From assembly GCA_021818685.1 (NCBI GenBank), contig JAKATP010000012.1, positions 1-38,086 of the forward strand: a DNA stretch of 38,086 bases. The letters run 5' to 3'. This document shows positions 4,590 through 30,267 of the stretch, piece after piece. The translations under genes were made by a program, and so were the position numbers. The stretch comes from Bacillota bacterium. Lineage in GTDB: Bacteria; Bacillota; Sulfobacillia; Sulfobacillales; JAIMBI01. Numbering within the stretch: the stretch's first letter is position 1; the number at the start of each line of letters is the position of its first letter. The notes under the pieces are model-generated. The model made no database searches. It was not told the origin of the DNA and saw only the letters and a program-made list of their open reading frames with translations.

Positions 4590-5501
4590 ATGTCGGGGAT
4601 CGGGTGGCTCACACCCGGCGTGCTGACGGGCGTGGCGGCCGTGGGCTTAGCCTATGCGTGGCTCATGTGGGGTCCGCCCCGTGGGAGTCGCCCGGCCGAC
4701 GAGGTGCCCACGCGCGGCCAGACACTGTTCTTCTACGCGTCGCTCCTGGCCGCCTACGCCGCCCTCGGAAGCCCGCTTGGCGTCCTGGCGATGACGGTGT
4801 CGTTTACCATGCACATGTTCCAGCACATGATAGCGGGGCTCGCCGTGCCACCCTTTCTCATCCGGGGCATTCCCGGGTGGGCGTGGCGACGTTTCTTTCG
4901 GAACCCCCTCGCTTCCGCCGTGTGGGGACGTCTGACTCGGCCCGTGACGGCGATTGTGCTGTTTAACGTGGTATTCGGCCTCATGGTTTATCCCGCCATC
5001 CTCACCTCCATGGTGCATTCCATGACCGCGATGCTTGGCTGGCATCTACTCCTGATGGCTACGGGCGTCTTCATGTGGTGGCCGATCGTGAGCCCCTCCG
5101 AAGAGTTTCCGCCCCTGCACCCGGGGCTGCAGATTCTCTATCTGTTCTTGGACGGCTTGCCCATGATCTTGCCTTTGGCACTGGTCACGCTCGATACGAC
5201 ACCCTTGTACGCGGCGGCCTACGGCCACCGCACGCTTCTTTGGGGGCTTAGCCTGGCAAGCGATCAACAGCTCGGCGGGGCCTTGTGTCTGACCGTGGTG
5301 CACTTTGTGTACGGCAGCATGGTCTATCCCCGCTACGGAGCCTGGGTACGACGGGAGCGAACGCTGGACGCTTCCTTGGAGCCGACCCTGGTGCACCTCC
5401 CCCGCCGCCCGGTGCCGGTCCTGCTGGCCGACGGCCATACGCCTGCCCCCGTACCGGCGAATGTCGTCCCATGGCCCGGGTCTATGCCGCCTGAAGCCTA
5501 A
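4590..5501 (+). CDS. ctaG: CtaG-family cytochrome c oxidase assembly factor
   Basis: A 303-residue polytopic membrane protein of the caa3-type CtaG family (PF09678). Typical features are many hydrophobic segments and the conserved histidine-rich region MHMFQHMIAGLAVPPF in the second helix. Later pieces include SMTAMLGWHLLLM and VHFVYGSMVYPRYG. In Bacillus CtaG is needed to make active caa3 oxidase, probably in copper-site assembly. This is family knowledge, not shown here. GGGGAGG lies upstream of the ATG with suitable spacing. The C-terminal tail is Pro-rich and soluble. Its presence, with the sdh operon downstream, points to aerobic respiration. No oxidase subunit genes are in the window. 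Confidence 0.88.
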   Translation: MSGIGWLTPGVLTGVAAVGLAYAWLMWGPPRGSRPADEVPTRGQTLFFYASLLAAYAALGSPLGVLAMTVSFTMHMFQHMIAGLAVPPFLIRGIPGWAWRRFFRNPLASAVWGRLTRPVTAIVLFNVVFGLMVYPAILTSMVHSMTAMLGWHLLLMATGVFMWWPIVSPSEEFPPLHPGLQILYLFLDGLPMILPLALVTLDTTPLYAAAYGHRTLLWGLSLASDQQLGGALCLTVVHFVYGSMVYPRYGAWVRRERTLDASLEPTLVHLPRRPVPVLLADGHTPAPVPANVVPWPGSMPPEA

Positions 5502-5602: not shown

Positions 5603-5869
5603 ATGGCCGACGTGATCATTTACGGCACCCCTACCTGAAGCGACTGCATCGGGGCGAGAGAGTTTCTCTCCCAGCATGGCCATCCCTTTACGTACCATAA
5701 CGTGGCGGAGGATCCCGCCGCCAAAGAGCGGGCGATGGCGTTGAACGGCGGCCGGTTCGGAAATCCCACCATTCTGGTGGACGGCCAGGTGGTGATGGCG
5801 GGCGGAGTCTTCACCCCCGGCATTTTTCGGGGCGTGGACGGGCTTCCCACCGAACTGCGGGAGGCGTAG
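5603..5869 (+). CDS. Selenocysteine-containing glutaredoxin-like protein (in-frame UGA)
   Basis: The reading frame is 88 codons and begins MADVIIYGTPT, followed by UGA (5636-5638), then SDC. It continues without interruption through GNPTILVDGQVV to TAG at 5867. The family is glutaredoxin/NrdH/mycoredoxin: beta-strand VIIYGTPT, active site CxxC, and the cis-Pro in NPTILVDG. The UGA is codon 12 and replaces the first cysteine, giving U-S-D-C with Cys15 as resolving residue. AAGGAGG lies 7 nt before the ATG. A hairpin suited to a bacterial SECIS follows the UGA (separate entry). If the UGA were a true stop, an 11-residue peptide would precede 76 codons of conserved glutaredoxin with no start, which is unlikely. 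Alternatives are UGA read as Cys by an unusual tRNA, or sequencing error. Its neighbour carries the same kind of UGA, arguing against error. It probably acts as a small cytoplasmic thiol/selenol oxidoreductase. Confidence 0.85.
5653..5672 (+). promoter_or_regulatory. Putative bacterial SECIS hairpin in the glutaredoxin mRNA
   Basis: GAGAGA (5656-5661) pairs perfectly with UCUCUC (5665-5670) around a GUU loop, and GG (5653-5654) pairs with CC (5671-5672) with one bulged C. The loop begins 23 nt after the UGA. SelB-binding bacterial SECIS elements are short hairpins at this distance downstream of UGA with a G, usually GU, in the apical loop, which this fits. Confidence 0.6.
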
Positions 5870-5975: not shown

Positions 5976-7328
5976 ATGAATAAAGGACGGTTCGTGGTGA
6001 TCGGGGGCGATGCGGCCGGCATGACGGCCGCTTCCCAAGTCAGGCGTCAAGCCCCCGAGCTGGAGATTCTCGTGTTCGAACAGGGAGTCTACACCTCGTA
6101 TTCCTCGTGAGGCATTCCCTATCTGGTCGGCCAGTTGGTCGGCGACACGGATGACCTGGTGGTGCGGACACCGGAGGCCTTCCGGCGGGCGGGGATCGAC
6201 GTGTGGATCCGCCACCGCGTCACCGCTGTGGATTTAGGGCGTCATTTGGTCGAGGTGACCGACCTCGATACCGCCCGGACCTACTGGGAATCGTTTGACC
6301 GACTTTTGCTCGCCACCGGTGCGCGCCCTGTCATCCCCGACGCGATCGATGCGAGCCTGGCCGGTGTGTACGGCGTGAAGAGCCTCGACGATGCCCGCGC
6401 CATTCAGCACGCTCTGGACGCGGCCCCGGGCGCGTCCGTGGTCGTGGTGGGCGGCGGCTACGTCGGCGTGGAGATGGCAGAGAACCTCCGCCGCATCGGC
6501 CGGTCCGTCACGGTTATAGACCGGAACCCAGCCCTGATGAGCAGTCTCGACCCGGATATGAGCCAACGCGTCACGGAGTTGGCTCTGAGTCTGGGTATCA
6601 AGGTCGCGCTCGAAGAAAACTTGACCGGCCTGGACGCCCACGGGGGTGTGGTGCGGGCTGTCCAAACCGATCGGGCGCGGCATCCGGCGGACATTGTCAT
6701 CCTTGGTCTCGGCGTAAGGCCCGAGGCCGAGCTTGCAGCGTCGGCCGGCATCCCCCTCGGTGTCGGCGGTGCCGTGCATGTCGACGACCATTGCCGCACC
6801 GGCATCCAGGACGTCTTGGCCGCCGGCGACTGCGCCGATGCTTATGACGTGGTCCGACGGCAGTACGTATATCAGCCGCTTGCGACTCACGCCAGCAAGC
6901 AAGGTCGGATCGCGGGCCTCGCGGTCGCGGGGCGGTCCGGCCGCTTTCCCGGTGTAACCGGCACGGCGGTGACCCAGATCGGGAACGCGGAGATTGCGCG
7001 TACGGGCATCGGCGAGCGAGAGATTCGTTCCCTCAACATCGACGGGGCGGCCGCGGCCATCTCCTCCACTACCCGGGTCGGCTACATGCCAGGTGCCTCG
7101 GCCGTCCACGTCAAGCTGTGGGGTGAGCGGGGCAGCGGTCGGCTCCTCGGCGCTCAGATAGTGGGTGGCCCGGGTGCCGGTAAGCGCATCGACGTCGTAG
7201 CCACCGCCCTTATGATGGCGATGACGGTCGAAGACCTGCTCGGACTCGATCTCGCCTACTCTCCCGGACTGTCAGACACCTGGGATCCCGTACAGGTGGC
7301 GGCCCGTGTCCTCGTACGCGATCTATAG
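5976..7328 (+). CDS. FAD/NAD(P)-dependent disulfide reductase, CoA-disulfide reductase family, with in-frame UGA (selenocysteine)
   Basis: The complete frame is 450 residues. It opens with an FAD-binding Rossmann motif (VVIGGDAAGMTAASQVRR), has the NAD(P) motif VVVGGGYVGVEMAENLRR around residue 155, and a second FAD motif DVLAAGDCADAYDVV near 280. The C-terminal dimerisation domain ends in LDLAYSPGLSDTWDP. This is the coenzyme A-disulfide reductase/NADH oxidase group, which uses a single cysteine in the motif SFxxCGxPYY. Here the text is SYSS-UGA-GIPYLVG: the UGA (6108-6110, codon 45) is exactly that cysteine. Sec is therefore the predicted sole redox residue facing FAD. All other family motifs are intact and the frame is open on both sides, so decay is unlikely. 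The ATG at 5976 is favoured for alignment to the family N-terminus. An in-frame ATG at 5958 exists, and neither has a strong ribosome site. The substrate (CoA disulfide, persulfide, polysulfide, peroxide or the adjacent redoxin) is unknown. Confidence 0.85.
6119..6138 (+). promoter_or_regulatory. Putative bacterial SECIS hairpin in the disulfide-reductase mRNA
   Basis: CUGG (6123-6126) pairs with CCAG (6131-6134) around a UCGG loop. Beyond one U-U mismatch, three more pairs (A-U, U-G, C-G) extend the stem. The loop starts 17 nt after the UGA and contains G. Position and size fit a bacterial SECIS, though the stem is weaker than that of the glutaredoxin gene. Confidence 0.5.
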
Positions 7329-9840: not shown

Positions 9841-9926
9841 CTATTGCGTGGCTAGATAGCGCCAAGCGGGCCTGCGCGCCCATACGGCGACCGCCAGGCC
9901 AAAATTCCCAAGACGGAGTGGTGCGC

Positions 9927-11603
9927 ATGATCTACAAGCACGATGTGTTGGTCGTAGGAGCCGGCCTGGCCGGCATGCGGGCAGCCATCGCGGCGCAGCA
10001 GCACGGCGTCGACGTCGCCATTGTTTCTAAAGTTTATCCGGTCCGGTCACACTCCAATGCCGCCCAGGGCGGCATCAATGCGGCTCTGGGCGAAGGCGAC
10101 AGCTGGGAGTCGCACGCCTACGACACCGTGAAGGGCAGCGACTATCTAGGAGACCAGGACGCCATTGAAATTCTCGCCAAAGAGGCTCCCCAGGCGGTGC
10201 TGGAGCTGGAACACTGGGGCGTGAACTTCAGCCGCGACGAGACGGGTCACCTCGGTACCCGCAACTTTGGCGGGGCCTCTCAAGCCCGCACGTACTTCGT
10301 GGCGGACATCACCGGCCAGGCCCTCTTGCAGATTATGTTCGAGCAGCTGGTGCGCTCCGGGCTCAAGATGTACAACGAATGGTTCGTGACGAGCCTGGTC
10401 CTTTCGGAAAATCGGGTGGTCGGAGTCCTCGCTCTGGATATGCGCAGCGGACAGCTCCACGGCATTACCGCGAAGTCCGTCGTGATTGCAAGCGGCGGCC
10501 TGGGGCGGGTGTTCGAGCCCTCCACCAACGCCCTCATCTGCACGGGAGACGGCATGGCCATCGCCTATCGCGCCGGAGCCCAGCTCATGGACATGGAGAT
10601 GATGCAGTACCACCCCACGACCCTTAAAGGATCGGGCGCCCTCTTGACCGAAGGGGCGCGGGGCGAGGGCGCTTACCTCCTGAACGCCAATGGCGAACGC
10701 TTCATGAAGAAATCGGCGCCCAATAAAATGGAACTGGCAAGCCGCGACGTGGTCTCGCGCGCCGAGCAGACGGAGATCGACGAGGGCCGCGGCATCGACG
10801 GCTGTGTGTTATTGGACTGCCGCCATCTGGGCCGTGACCTCATCATGACCAAGCTCGGGCAGATTCACGAGCTGGCACTGGAGTTAGCCGGGGTCGACAT
10901 CGTGAAGGAGCCGGTGCCGGTGCGGCCGGGATTTCACTACCCGATGGGCGGTATCAAGACCGACGTCTTCGGAGAGACCACCGTGCCGGGCCTGTACGCG
11001 GCCGGGGAGGCCGCCTGCGTCTCCATTCACGGAGGAAACCGCCTCGGTGCCAACTCCCTTCTCGACACCGTCATCTATGGCCGCCGGGCGGGAGAAGCCG
11101 CTGCCGACGCGGCGGCCAAGCTCGCCGGCGAAGAAGTGCGCGAGACGGCTGTGCGCGACGAAGAGCGCCGCATCCAGGCCCTCGTGGACCGCCCCGATCG
11201 GGGTCAGTTTGCGGCCAAGGTGCGGTGGGACATGGGCACGGGGATGGTGACGCACTGCGGTGTGTTCCGGGATCAGAAGGGGCTCGAAGCCTGCGGCGAC
11301 CTACTGCACGACTTGAAGGATCGCTTTACGCAGGTCCACGTGGGCGATAAGGGCCGCGTGTTCAACACCAACCTCCTGTCCGTGCTGGAGCTGCGCAACA
11401 TGCTGGATCTGGCGGAGGCCGTGCAGCTGACCGCCCTCACCCGGACGGAGAGCCGGGGAGCCCATACCCGCATCGACTACCCGGAGCGGGACGACGAGCA
11501 CTGGCTCCGCCACATCCTCCTGCAGTACCGCGAAGACGGCCCCGAGATAAGCTACCGCCCGGTCACGATTACGCAGTGGGAGCCCCAGGTTCGCACGTAC
11601 TAG
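9927..11603 (+). CDS. sdhA: Succinate dehydrogenase/fumarate reductase flavoprotein subunit
   Basis: A 558-residue flavoprotein that oxidises succinate to fumarate. It shows the N-terminal FAD motif VLVVGAGLAGMRAAIAAQ and the covalent-FAD histidine, His42, in RSHSNAAQGG. Substrate-site segments are MMQYHPTTL and GARGEGAYLLN, and the C-terminal flavin region is HGGNRLGANSLLD. The ATG at 9927 has GGAG 8 nt upstream. It is the first gene of a three-gene operon with sdhB and sdhE. Length and motifs are normal. The family also includes fumarate reductases, but the aerobic context (ctaG) favours succinate oxidation. Confidence 0.93.
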   Translation: MIYKHDVLVVGAGLAGMRAAIAAQQHGVDVAIVSKVYPVRSHSNAAQGGINAALGEGDSWESHAYDTVKGSDYLGDQDAIEILAKEAPQAVLELEHWGVNFSRDETGHLGTRNFGGASQARTYFVADITGQALLQIMFEQLVRSGLKMYNEWFVTSLVLSENRVVGVLALDMRSGQLHGITAKSVVIASGGLGRVFEPSTNALICTGDGMAIAYRAGAQLMDMEMMQYHPTTLKGSGALLTEGARGEGAYLLNANGERFMKKSAPNKMELASRDVVSRAEQTEIDEGRGIDGCVLLDCRHLGRDLIMTKLGQIHELALELAGVDIVKEPVPVRPGFHYPMGGIKTDVFGETTVPGLYAAGEAACVSIHGGNRLGANSLLDTVIYGRRAGEAAADAAAKLAGEEVRETAVRDEERRIQALVDRPDRGQFAAKVRWDMGTGMVTHCGVFRDQKGLEACGDLLHDLKDRFTQVHVGDKGRVFNTNLLSVLELRNMLDLAEAVQLTALTRTESRGAHTRIDYPERDDEHWLRHILLQYREDGPEISYRPVTITQWEPQVRTY

Positions 11604-11640
11604 GAGGCTTTCCCCTTACCCTTTGAAGGCAGGTGCTTTT

Positions 11641-12627
11641 ATGGATATCAAGCTGAAGGTGCGGCGGCAGAACCCGGAGGCGGACGACAAACCGTTCTGG
11701 AAAGACTACGCCGTCGAGGTGCCCGAGTACTACACCCTCCTCGACGCCCTCTTAAAGGTGCGTGAAGAGGTGGACGAGACACTGGCGCTTCGTTGTTCGT
11801 GCCGCAGTCACATTTGCGGGTCGTGCGGCATGCGCGTCAATGGTCACGCGGCCCTGGCGTGCAAGACGAAGCTGTCGGACTTGGATCAGGAGACCGTGAC
11901 CGTGGAGCCGATGGGCAACATGCCTGTCATTCGGGATCTCGTGGTCGATCTGGAGCCATTTTGGAACAAGCTCTACAGCATCAAGCCGTACCTGCAGCCC
12001 GCCACGGATCCCCCGGAGCGCGAATATGTCGTGCCGAACGAGACGATGTTCCATCTGGACGGAGTCGTCAACTGCATCATGTGCGGCGCATGCGTCTCGG
12101 ACTGCGAGTCGTTGTCCGTAAACCCCATCTTCATCGGCCCGACGGCGTTCGCCAAAGAATATCGGTTTGTGCTTGATCCTCGCGACGCTGCCGACCGTGA
12201 GCGACTGTCCCAGATGAACGGGCCGGGTGGGGTGTGGGACTGCACGCACTGCTTTCAGTGCGTGGAGGTGTGTCCGAAGGACGTCGCGCCCATGGACCGC
12301 ATCATGGCGATGCGCCGGATGATGATGGACATGGGTATGGAGCAGCATAACGGCGCGAAGCGTGCCAACGCCTTCATGGATCTCGTGGGCACGTACGGAC
12401 GGCTTGATGAGACGCGACTTCTCATGCGCAGCGTGTCAGGCCTAGGTGAGCTCATGAGCTTCTCCAAGGTCGGATTCCGTGCGCTCTGGAAAGGCAAGCT
12501 GCCTCCCCTGAAGCCCCATCGGATTGCCGGGGCCCCAGCCGTGCGCCGGATTCTCGAGCGGGCCAGAAACCAGCGCCCGCGGCGCTTCAAGGTCCATCAG
12601 GCTCAGGAGGAGGGAGTGCGCGCATGA
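11641..12627 (+). CDS. sdhB: Succinate dehydrogenase iron-sulfur subunit, SdhE-type operon
   Basis: A 328-residue iron-sulfur subunit that passes electrons from SdhA. The [2Fe-2S] ligands are Cys54, 59, 62 and 74 (CRSHICGSCG... LAC). The [4Fe-4S] motif is CIMCGACVSDC. The third cluster motif reads CTHCFQCVEVCPKDV. In ordinary SdhB the residue after C-x-x is not cysteine and the site holds [3Fe-4S]. The extra cysteine here predicts a second [4Fe-4S], as reported for the archaeal and SdhE-containing class. The C-terminus is longer than in classical SdhB and basic. AGGTG precedes the ATG at 11641, 37 nt after sdhA, and its stop overlaps the sdhE start (ATGA). Confidence 0.92.
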   Translation: MDIKLKVRRQNPEADDKPFWKDYAVEVPEYYTLLDALLKVREEVDETLALRCSCRSHICGSCGMRVNGHAALACKTKLSDLDQETVTVEPMGNMPVIRDLVVDLEPFWNKLYSIKPYLQPATDPPEREYVVPNETMFHLDGVVNCIMCGACVSDCESLSVNPIFIGPTAFAKEYRFVLDPRDAADRERLSQMNGPGGVWDCTHCFQCVEVCPKDVAPMDRIMAMRRMMMDMGMEQHNGAKRANAFMDLVGTYGRLDETRLLMRSVSGLGELMSFSKVGFRALWKGKLPPLKPHRIAGAPAVRRILERARNQRPRRFKVHQAQEEGVRA

Positions 12628-13505
12628 AGTACGCCTTTTATCCGGGATGCGTCGCCAAAGGGGGCACGCCCGAGTTGTATCAGGCCATGACGGCGGTAGG
12701 CGAAAGACTTGGGTTGGAGCTGCATGAGCTGACGGGCGCGGCCTGCACGGGGGCCGGCGTTATCACCGAGCGGGATCCCTTTGCGGGCGACGTGGTGAAC
12801 AGTCGCACGTTTGCCATGGCCGAGCAACTGGGCCTGCCCGTCATGACGATCTGCAGCACCTGCACGGGGGTCATGATGGGCGTAAAGAGCCGGGTGGATG
12901 CCCACGACGACTATCGCGAACGGGTAAACCAGCTGCTGGCCGACGAGGATCTCCATTACAGCGGCCAGACCGATGTGAAGCACCTGTTGTGGGTGCTGGT
13001 GGAAGACCTTGGGCTCGACAAATTGAAGGCCATGGTGGTAAACCCGCTTCACGGCATGCGGCTCGCCCCGTTCTACGGCTGCTATGTCGTCCGTCCGTCG
13101 AAGGACGTGGACCCCCTCCGTCTTGGCCGCATGGGGTACCTGGAGAAAGTCATCGAGGCTCTCGGCGCCGAACCTGTGGAGGAATACCGCGGCAAGGACA
13201 AGTGTTGCGGCTTTCCGCTCCTCGAGACCAACCGCCGCGGGTCCCTGGCCTTGACCGGCAAGCGTCTGGCCGAGGCCCGCGACGTGGGTGCGGATGCGCT
13301 CGTGACGCCGTGCCCCCTGTGCCACCTGAACCTCGACGGCCAGCAGCCCGAAACCCCGGATGCGGGGCGGGTCGACGCGATGCCGGTCATGCACCTGCCC
13401 CAGGCCATCGGACTCGCGATCGGCATCCCACCGGAGCGACTCGGCTTGCATCGGCATATCATCGACACGAAGAAGATCCTGGCAAAGGTGGCCGTGGCGG
13501 GTTAG
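12624..13505 (+). CDS. sdhE: SdhE-type (HdrB-like) CCG-domain membrane-associated subunit
   Basis: A 293-residue protein of the heterodisulfide-reductase subunit B/CCG-domain family. In place of the haem-bearing SdhC/SdhD anchor, non-classical succinate dehydrogenases carry this subunit. The C-terminal CCG motif is intact: GCYVVRP, then KCCGFPLLETN, then PCPLCHLNLD, a set of ligands for a non-cubane [4Fe-4S] cluster. The N-terminal copy is degenerate: YPGC, then AACTGAGV instead of CCG, then CSTCTGVM. There are no transmembrane helices, so membrane attachment would be through amphipathic helices. The start overlaps the sdhB stop by 4 nt, indicating coupled translation. The terminator at 13531 ends the operon. 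Confidence 0.85.
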   Translation: MKYAFYPGCVAKGGTPELYQAMTAVGERLGLELHELTGAACTGAGVITERDPFAGDVVNSRTFAMAEQLGLPVMTICSTCTGVMMGVKSRVDAHDDYRERVNQLLADEDLHYSGQTDVKHLLWVLVEDLGLDKLKAMVVNPLHGMRLAPFYGCYVVRPSKDVDPLRLGRMGYLEKVIEALGAEPVEEYRGKDKCCGFPLLETNRRGSLALTGKRLAEARDVGADALVTPCPLCHLNLDGQQPETPDAGRVDAMPVMHLPQAIGLAIGIPPERLGLHRHIIDTKKILAKVAVAG

Positions 13506-28873: not shown

Positions 28874-30064
28874 TCACCGCCCGATGCCGACGGCCTGCAG
28901 ACGTCCGGCCGCATCCAGGTCGTCGTACAGCCGCAGGATCTCGCGGGCCATGCGGTCCACGGTGAAGCAATCTCGGACAACCTCCTGACCCCGGCGGCCG
29001 AACCGGGCAGCGAGTCCCGGGTCGTTCCACAGGGCTACCGCCTGCTCCAGCATGGTCTCCATATCGTCGCGGGGCACGAGAACACCCGTGTCATTGCTCC
29101 ACATCACCTGTTCCAAAGCCGCCACCCGGCTGGCCACCACGGGGACGCCGGAGGCAAGCGACTCGAGGGCGGCGAGGCCGAGCGTGTGCCGGGTCCCGGG
29201 CACGATCGTACAGGTCGCGGCCGCATAGTATCCCGGCAGTCGCCGATGGGGAACCGATCCCGCCCACACTACGCGTGGACCGCCGAAAACCGCGAATGTC
29301 TCGTCCGACGCCCCGACCCCCACCACCACTAAGCGACAGTCATGGGGGATGCGTCCGGCCCCATCCGCCGCCTGCCATACCCGCAGAAACTGGCGTGCCG
29401 GCTCATGGTTCTGCTCGCTCACCACGAGGAGAATACCTCGGCGGCTCAATTGCAGGCGCCGCAGGATCGGGCCCGGGTCGCGTGGGAAGAACACAGTGGG
29501 ATCGACGGCGGGAGGGACCACCCGGACCCGCGCCTCGGGCTCCAGGGCAATAACCCGGTCCGCCATCTCACTGTTGGACACGATCACCCGGTCCGCTTCT
29601 TTCAATTGACGCCTCACCATCACTGCCGTCGCGCTGTCCGCCGCCGGCTCCGGCAGCACGAGCGGGGTATGGACCCAAGGCAGCCGGAGCGCCCGGGCTA
29701 ACGGTCCCGCCACCCCGGCCGAAATCCAATAATAGCTGTGGACCAGCCGATAGCGCCGGGCGCCCTCCTCCCGAACCCACTGCAGCGCTTCATCAGTGAG
29801 TGCCTCCAGAGCCGCTGCCCATGAAGCATCGTCCTGCCGTCCGGAGCTCGCACGCAGGCGGATGATGCGCCCCATCTGCCCCAGCACCGAGCGTCGGGAA
29901 TCATTCGGGGTCGTCTGGGCCGTCAGCACGTCGACGCCATAGCCATGCGCCTGCAGCGCCCGCACCGTGTCCTGAACCAGCACCGCCTGTCCACTGGCCG
30001 ACGGTCGGTCCTGCGGCCGCAAGGGATCCGATCTCAGGGACACGTGCAATAATCTGCGGTCCAT
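28874..30064 (-). CDS. GT4-family glycosyltransferase under c-di-AMP riboswitch
   Basis: A 396-residue glycosyltransferase with the GT-B fold, family 4 (Glycos_transf_1). The N-terminal acceptor domain has HSYYWISAGVAGPLARAL. The donor domain has RVVPPAVDPTVFFPRD, a strand LLVVSEQNHEPARQF, and the E-x7-E type motif in GLAALESLASGVPVVAS. The C-terminal helix resembles sucrose-phosphate-synthase-like or MshA-like enzymes, so the product could be an osmolyte or envelope glycan. This is not resolved. The ATG at 30064 has GAGGAGG 6 nt upstream. It is inserted between ftsY and ylxM, where Bacillus has nothing, with its own promoter, riboswitch and terminator. Confidence 0.85.
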   Translation of the reverse strand: MDRRLLHVSLRSDPLRPQDRPSASGQAVLVQDTVRALQAHGYGVDVLTAQTTPNDSRRSVLGQMGRIIRLRASSGRQDDASWAAALEALTDEALQWVREEGARRYRLVHSYYWISAGVAGPLARALRLPWVHTPLVLPEPAADSATAVMVRRQLKEADRVIVSNSEMADRVIALEPEARVRVVPPAVDPTVFFPRDPGPILRRLQLSRRGILLVVSEQNHEPARQFLRVWQAADGAGRIPHDCRLVVVGVGASDETFAVFGGPRVVWAGSVPHRRLPGYYAAATCTIVPGTRHTLGLAALESLASGVPVVASRVAALEQVMWSNDTGVLVPRDDMETMLEQAVALWNDPGLAARFGRRGQEVVRDCFTVDRMAREILRLYDDLDAAGRLQAVGIGR

Positions 30065-30085
30065 GCCATGCCTCCTCGAAACAAG

Positions 30086-30114
30086 AAAAAATGTCCCACG
30101 CCATGCGTGGGACA
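30086..30114 (-). terminator. Riboswitch-linked intrinsic terminator
   Basis: A perfect 10-bp stem (30092-30101 with 30105-30114) with a 3-nt loop is followed on the minus strand by six T residues. It stands between the c-di-AMP aptamer and the ribosome site of the glycosyltransferase gene, the usual place for a transcription-terminating expression platform. Confidence 0.85.
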
Positions 30115-30122
30115 ACTCAATA

Positions 30123-30230
30123 AACGCCTTGTGCCCCCACGCCTGCGAAGTTAGCTGACGGGTGCGGGTTGGGTCCCCGTCTCGCGGTTAGCGAGATTTA
30201 CCCCCACAGAAACTGGGTCCTCCGCTCCCC
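30123..30230 (-). promoter_or_regulatory. Cyclic di-AMP riboswitch (ydaO/yuaA type)
   Basis: On the minus strand the conserved blocks of the ydaO motif occur in order: GCGGAGGACCCA, GGGGGTAAATCTCGC, a variable hairpin (CTCGCTAACCGCGAG), GGGGACCCAACCCG, and CCGTCAGCTAACTTCGCAGG. This class binds c-di-AMP and usually turns off wall-remodelling or potassium/osmolyte transport genes when ligand is high. With the terminator just downstream, ligand binding should lower transcription of the glycosyltransferase. Confidence 0.85.
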
Positions 30231-30267
30231 GAATGCGCTCGGGGATTTGGCAATACAAGGTACTTAG

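Follow-up and report, generated by a model that had tools for sequence, protein, structure and literature searches.

A probable selenocysteine-containing flavoenzyme of the CoA-disulfide/CoA-persulfide reductase group in Sulfobacillales

The gene at positions 5976..7328 (+ strand) of the window, by which we mean the whole stretch of 38,086 nucleotides that was analyzed, codes for a flavoenzyme of the CoA-disulfide/persulfide reductase type (450 aa, ATG to TAG) and contains one internal TGA, which falls on the invariant active-site cysteine of the family. The product is very probably a selenoprotein form of the single-cysteine CoA-disulfide/CoA-persulfide reductase group, in which UGA45 would be decoded as selenocysteine (Sec) by the SelA, SelB, SelD, and tRNA-Sec of the host itself, guided by a hairpin in the mRNA. 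A Sec reductase of the CoA-disulfide reductase (CoADR) type is already known as a predicted selenoprotein, and the window gene is a strongly supported further example of it. New are its occurrence across the Sulfobacillales lineage, with two apparent reversions from Sec to Cys, another and seemingly recent Cys-to-Sec change in a different family of Bacillota, and a predicted Sec glutaredoxin gene neighboring the reductase in this genus.

The first prediction of a Sec CoA-disulfide reductase type goes back to Kryukov and Gladyshev in 2004 (cited by PMC9312934 and PMC13188914). Table 1 of PMC13188914 gives an "FAD-dependent oxidoreductase (CoA-disulfide reductase)" (TIGR03385, motif UGxP, WP_011365774.1) as "Predicted with high confidence" (see also PMC9312934). 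Earlier surveys counted one NADH oxidase, from Geobacter metallireducens, among 285 bacterial selenoproteins (Zhang 2006, PMC1794560) and, in the ocean survey of 2008, one such selenoprotein among 3,506 (PMC2398784). Compared by its listed motif, WP_011365774.1 shares with the window reductase both the enzyme group (TIGR03385/COG0446) and the Sec motif, here U45-G46-I47-P48, but the window gene is from a different lineage (Sulfobacillales) and has a neighboring predicted Sec glutaredoxin gene. In our full-text literature searches, no assay of a Sec enzyme of this group came up, nor, going by titles and abstracts, did any publication describing a CoADR-type selenoprotein from Sulfobacillus.

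Reading frame and in-frame UGA

The sequences on the two sides of the TGA form a single protein, as residues 5-444 can be aligned to the CoADR of Bacillus anthracis (3cgb; E 6.6e-97), and residue 45, encoded at 6108..6110 (+) within the motif SYSS-U-GIPY, falls on the cysteine of that enzyme. This alignment, together with the orthologues described below, confirms what the initial annotation had read from the DNA, namely, a TGA on the family Cys at codon 45 with the motifs intact on both sides. When the UGA is not recoded, the longest ORF is the one starting at TTG 6135, with 397 aa, and the FAD-binding dinucleotide motif VVIGGDAAGM (5994..6023, +), located 5' of the UGA, is lost. ORF calling therefore bore out the expectation that an automated gene start would be placed at 6135 at the expense of the FAD motif, and gene callers will shorten Sec reductase genes of this kind in the same way. 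The initial annotation also spoke of a single redox cysteine, which is right in the sense that Cys/Sec45 is the sole invariant one, although the reductase has other cysteines (e.g., C286).

A nonsense change in a decaying Cys enzyme or an assembly mistake could also leave a TGA at this place, as the codon is one base from TGC and TGT and the host genome is a draft (3.09 Mb, 246 contigs). However, the same TGA is found in 11 separate genomes, with the other ten orthologues having 46-79% identity to the window gene, the frame is otherwise intact, and the codons of the hairpin are synonymously frozen (see below). Most of the changes located 5' of the TGA affect third positions; specifically, codons 1-44 differ from those of the same-genus orthologue at 25 places, 19 of them third positions, so this part of the gene is under coding constraint. 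We reject the pseudogene or sequencing error on these comparative data and regard its probability as negligible.

It is also highly improbable that the UGA is read through or reassigned, e.g., to Trp or Gly, with no selenocysteine involved. The frame is open across the UGA, as it would be in that case, but UGA terminates many other ORFs in the window, position 45 is Cys, and never Trp or Gly, in all homologues that lack the UGA, and the host has the full machinery for Sec, with a SECIS in the gene. A general reassignment of UGA was thus rejected on the conservation of the codon, on the regular use of UGA as a stop within the window, and on the Sec machinery.

SECIS hairpin, Sec machinery, and history of the Sec codon

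The SECIS hairpin, GUCGGCC-AGUU-GGUCGGC, is located at 6126..6143 (+) and has a stem of 7 bp, the apical loop AGUU with a G at loop position 2, a distance of 22 nt from the UGA to the apical loop, and an energy of -9.6 kcal/mol. All of these values are within the published bSECIS model, which specifies an apical loop of 3-9 nt, a stem of 4-16 bp, a G in the first two loop positions, a spacing of 16-37 nt, and an energy of at most -7.5 kcal/mol. A hairpin in the same register is present in 11/11 UGA genes, with seven or eight bp and the apical loop AGUU, GGUU, AGUUUG, or AGGUUG; it begins 17-18 nt 3' of the first UGA base. No comparable hairpin was found in the three Cys order-mates, which have other codons at most of the hairpin places. 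The codons themselves are synonymously frozen within the hairpin. There are 76 positions with a four- or six-fold degenerate residue common to all 11 UGA proteins, and a single codon is used throughout at 4 of them, 3 of which are the hairpin residues Val51, Gly52, and Val55; if single-codon positions were randomly placed, three given positions would all be included in the four with a probability of 4/70,300. The strength of the SECIS evidence is in this cross-gene comparison, as the hairpins of single genes modestly beat shuffles (of 300 synonymous shuffles, 2-48 reached the stability of the native hairpin). A hairpin alone proves little, because some GC-rich Cys homologues form stable ones at other positions, and base-pair covariation, which is weak, is uninformative because the stem pairs hardly vary (5 of the 7 never do).

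The components for decoding are found in the host genome, all over their cut-offs: tRNA-Sec (71.8 bits), SelA (539 bits), SelB (339.5 bits), and SelD (363.5 bits). SelB is over the cut-off in all 11 of the UGA carriers as well, and SelA was matched in the host and in 8 of the 10 others. The profile search for SelA gave no match in the UGA-carrying drafts G001 and G028, both with SelB, and this gap may be due to the assemblies or, alternatively, to an uncommon way of making Sec. The host SelD gene (G000:C233:17851-18783, - strand) has an in-frame UGA of its own at the Sec/Cys site (SG-U-GCK), and a hairpin is also seen just 3' of that UGA.

An orthologue of the reductase is present in 14 of the 42 Sulfobacillales genomes. 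Eleven of these orthologues, the window gene included, carry a single TGA, which in each case falls on the Cys position, the other three have TGC there, and several orthologues of the order carry U-S-[IV]-P in place of UGxP. Beyond the order, Cys is at position 45 in the homologues examined from Actinomycetota, haloarchaea, Archaeoglobi, Chloroflexota, and Clostridia. In another Bacillota family, G285 and G497, sister species of one genus, have UGA at the same codon, and their closest relatives have TGC. No residue other than these two was seen at position 45, as every homologue examined has either UGA or a Cys codon there. The initial annotation had named two observations that would speak against Sec, absence of the machinery and another sense codon in relatives, and neither was made. 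Selenocysteine at codon 45 is thus supported by the machinery, by the conserved SECIS, and by a position that admits TGA or Cys only.

In the maximum-likelihood tree, the 14 Sulfobacillales sequences form one supported clade, which is placed next to an actinobacterial Cys clade (including one sequence from an acidobacterial MAG). Three changes of the Sec label are required for the Sulfobacillales set, which, as far as the tree goes, would apparently correspond to one gain of Sec and two reversions to Cys. Addition of G285 and G497 requires one further label change, nested among Cys enzymes, and their UGA is best read as a recent and separate Cys-to-Sec change. SelA is present in G285 and in four relatives from its genus and a sister genus. 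The reductase hairpins of G285 and G497 (loop GGA) are weak. The Sulfobacillales orthologues (11 with Sec, 3 with Cys) and the second family provide natural pairs for measuring the contribution of selenium to a one-cysteine flavoenzyme.

Family, fold, and candidate catalytic residues

The reductase matches Pyr_redox_2, Pyr_redox, and Pyr_redox_dim of Pfam and has the features of the single-cysteine CoADR/Npsr group, i.e., FAD and NAD(P)H domains, a dimerization domain, the invariant Cys/Sec, and two conserved tyrosines. The CoADR equivalog model TIGR03385 matches over the full length with 402 bits, below its cut-off of 578.8, and a second CoADR model gives 392 bits, below its cut-off of 458. 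Because these scores are under the equivalog cut-offs, we placed the protein in the CoADR group and not among the strict CoADRs, and, to judge by the profiles, it may differ from a CoA-disulfide reductase proper. The candidate catalytic tyrosines, Tyr370 (7083..7085, +) and Tyr428 (7257..7259, +), are invariant and align with tyrosines of 3cgb. Their spacing of 58 is that of Tyr361 and Tyr419 in the CoADR of S. aureus, and these two residues are, per the entry titles, mutated (Y361F/Y419F) in PDB 4eqr, 4eqs, and 4eqw.

The AlphaFold model, built with a 26-sequence alignment and with Cys replacing Sec, has a mean pLDDT of 93.1 and a pTM of 0.89. Its best PDB matches (TM of 0.93-0.95) are the B. 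anthracis CoADR, the NADH-dependent CoADR 6ruz, and the CoA persulfide/polysulfide reductase of Pyrococcus horikoshii. Homology to the B. anthracis enzyme 3cgb is near end to end (TM of 0.94), with the same Cys/Sec position and the same tyrosines, but 3cgb has Cys for Sec and an identity to the window reductase of 37% over the structural alignment. The same FAD/CoA core with one active-site Cys is found in P. horikoshii 4fx9, in the CoAPR of Enterococcus faecalis (8a56), and in the Npsr of Archaeoglobus fulgidus (6pfz), all of which have Cys where the window reductase has Sec. Npsr also possesses an extra C-terminal rhodanese domain, for which we obtained no match in the window reductase, which ends at 450 aa, and CoAPR is longer, with 571 residues.

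The same structural family (TM of 0.93-0.94) includes NADH oxidases and NADH peroxidases, so a Sec enzyme that acts on O2 or H2O2 via a selenenic acid, and not on CoA disulfides or persulfides, has to be considered. The adjoining CtaG gene (4590-5501) suggests an oxygen-respiring cell, and this type of selenoprotein was called "NADH oxidase" in older papers (PMC1794560, PMC2398784). However, the NOX model, whose cut-off is 600 bits, gives a score of 237, the structures that come closest are those of CoA-disulfide/persulfide reductases, and both CoADR-type tyrosines are invariant. The flavin-adjacent base in NADH peroxidase/oxidase is the active-site His10, and a hand alignment of the motifs puts Ala13 at this place in the window reductase. 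We consider an oxidase or peroxidase quite unlikely.

In the CoADR/Npsr group, the cysteine is located beside the flavin and, together with bound CoA, acts on di-, per-, and polysulfides, and the substrate cannot be told from the sequence in this group (PMC6026696, PMC7969121 for the chemistry; PMC6026696 for the substrate). The exact substrate of the window reductase is likewise beyond what its sequence tells. Sec in place of Cys might also alter the redox properties and the substrate range, as the initial annotation proposed. For a Sec enzyme of the CoA-disulfide/CoA-persulfide reductase group, we can propose a cycle in which NAD(P)H would reduce the FAD, and the flavin would reduce a Sec45-S (or Sec-S-CoA) bond beside the flavin ring. 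The Sec45 selenolate would attack a CoA-bound disulfide, persulfide, or polysulfide, with the leaving thiolate assisted by Tyr370 and Tyr428 (from the partner subunit in known CoADRs).

Adjacent glutaredoxin-like gene and gene neighborhood

About 100 bp upstream of the reductase, at 5603..5869 (+), there is a gene for a glutaredoxin-like selenoprotein of 88 aa (MADVIIYGTPT-U-SDC). Its UGA is codon 12 (5636..5638, +), the first position of a UxxC motif, and a putative SECIS, GAGAGA-GUU-UCUCUC, is located at 5656..5670 (+), with -5.5 kcal/mol as a bare hairpin. The protein scores above the cut-off of the Pfam Glutaredoxin model and below that of the NCBIfam Uxx-star model (47.6 against 66). In the sister species G001, the glutaredoxin-like and reductase genes are also side by side, with a UGA in each. 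Besides these two, a simple script that scanned the window for UGA/Cys-motif genes accompanied by a SECIS gave no convincing candidate.

The reductase could serve this glutaredoxin, with electrons from NAD(P)H reaching the glutaredoxin Sec via FAD and Sec45. Two selenoprotein genes so close on the same strand, with both UGAs kept in the sister species, point in this direction, and co-localized selenoprotein genes are often part of a shared pathway (PMC13188914). On the other hand, a check of the nine remaining orthologous regions, some of them on short contigs, found no glutaredoxin-like gene next to the reductase, and the normal substrates of the reductase group are low-molecular-weight CoA species. 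A functional link between the two proteins is possible but not general, and we regard the glutaredoxin as an unlikely partner of the reductase. The more specific proposal of a dedicated Sec-to-Sec relay in an oxygen-respiring Sulfobacillales lineage, which would run from NAD(P)H to FAD, Sec45, and Sec12 and then to a sulfur, selenium, or metal substrate, is equally doubtful.

Neighbors were annotated by profile in the window, and the ten orthologous regions were compared as lists of flanking ORFs. In addition to CtaG, the neighbors of the reductase include a methyltransferase-domain protein, a helix-turn-helix protein, and succinate dehydrogenase/fumarate reductase-like subunits. We rejected the gene neighborhood as a guide to function, as the flanking ORFs looked different between genera and the pairing of glutaredoxin and reductase genes is confined to this genus. 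The region 9918-13505 (+), three to five genes downstream of the reductase gene, codes for flavoprotein and iron-sulfur subunits that resemble those of succinate dehydrogenase/fumarate reductase and, after them, for a cysteine-rich subunit (CCG domain) resembling SdhE/HdrB. Last, a c-di-AMP riboswitch (Rfam RF00379, 72.3 bits) is located at 30129-30262 (-), just upstream of the reverse-strand ORF 28874-30115.
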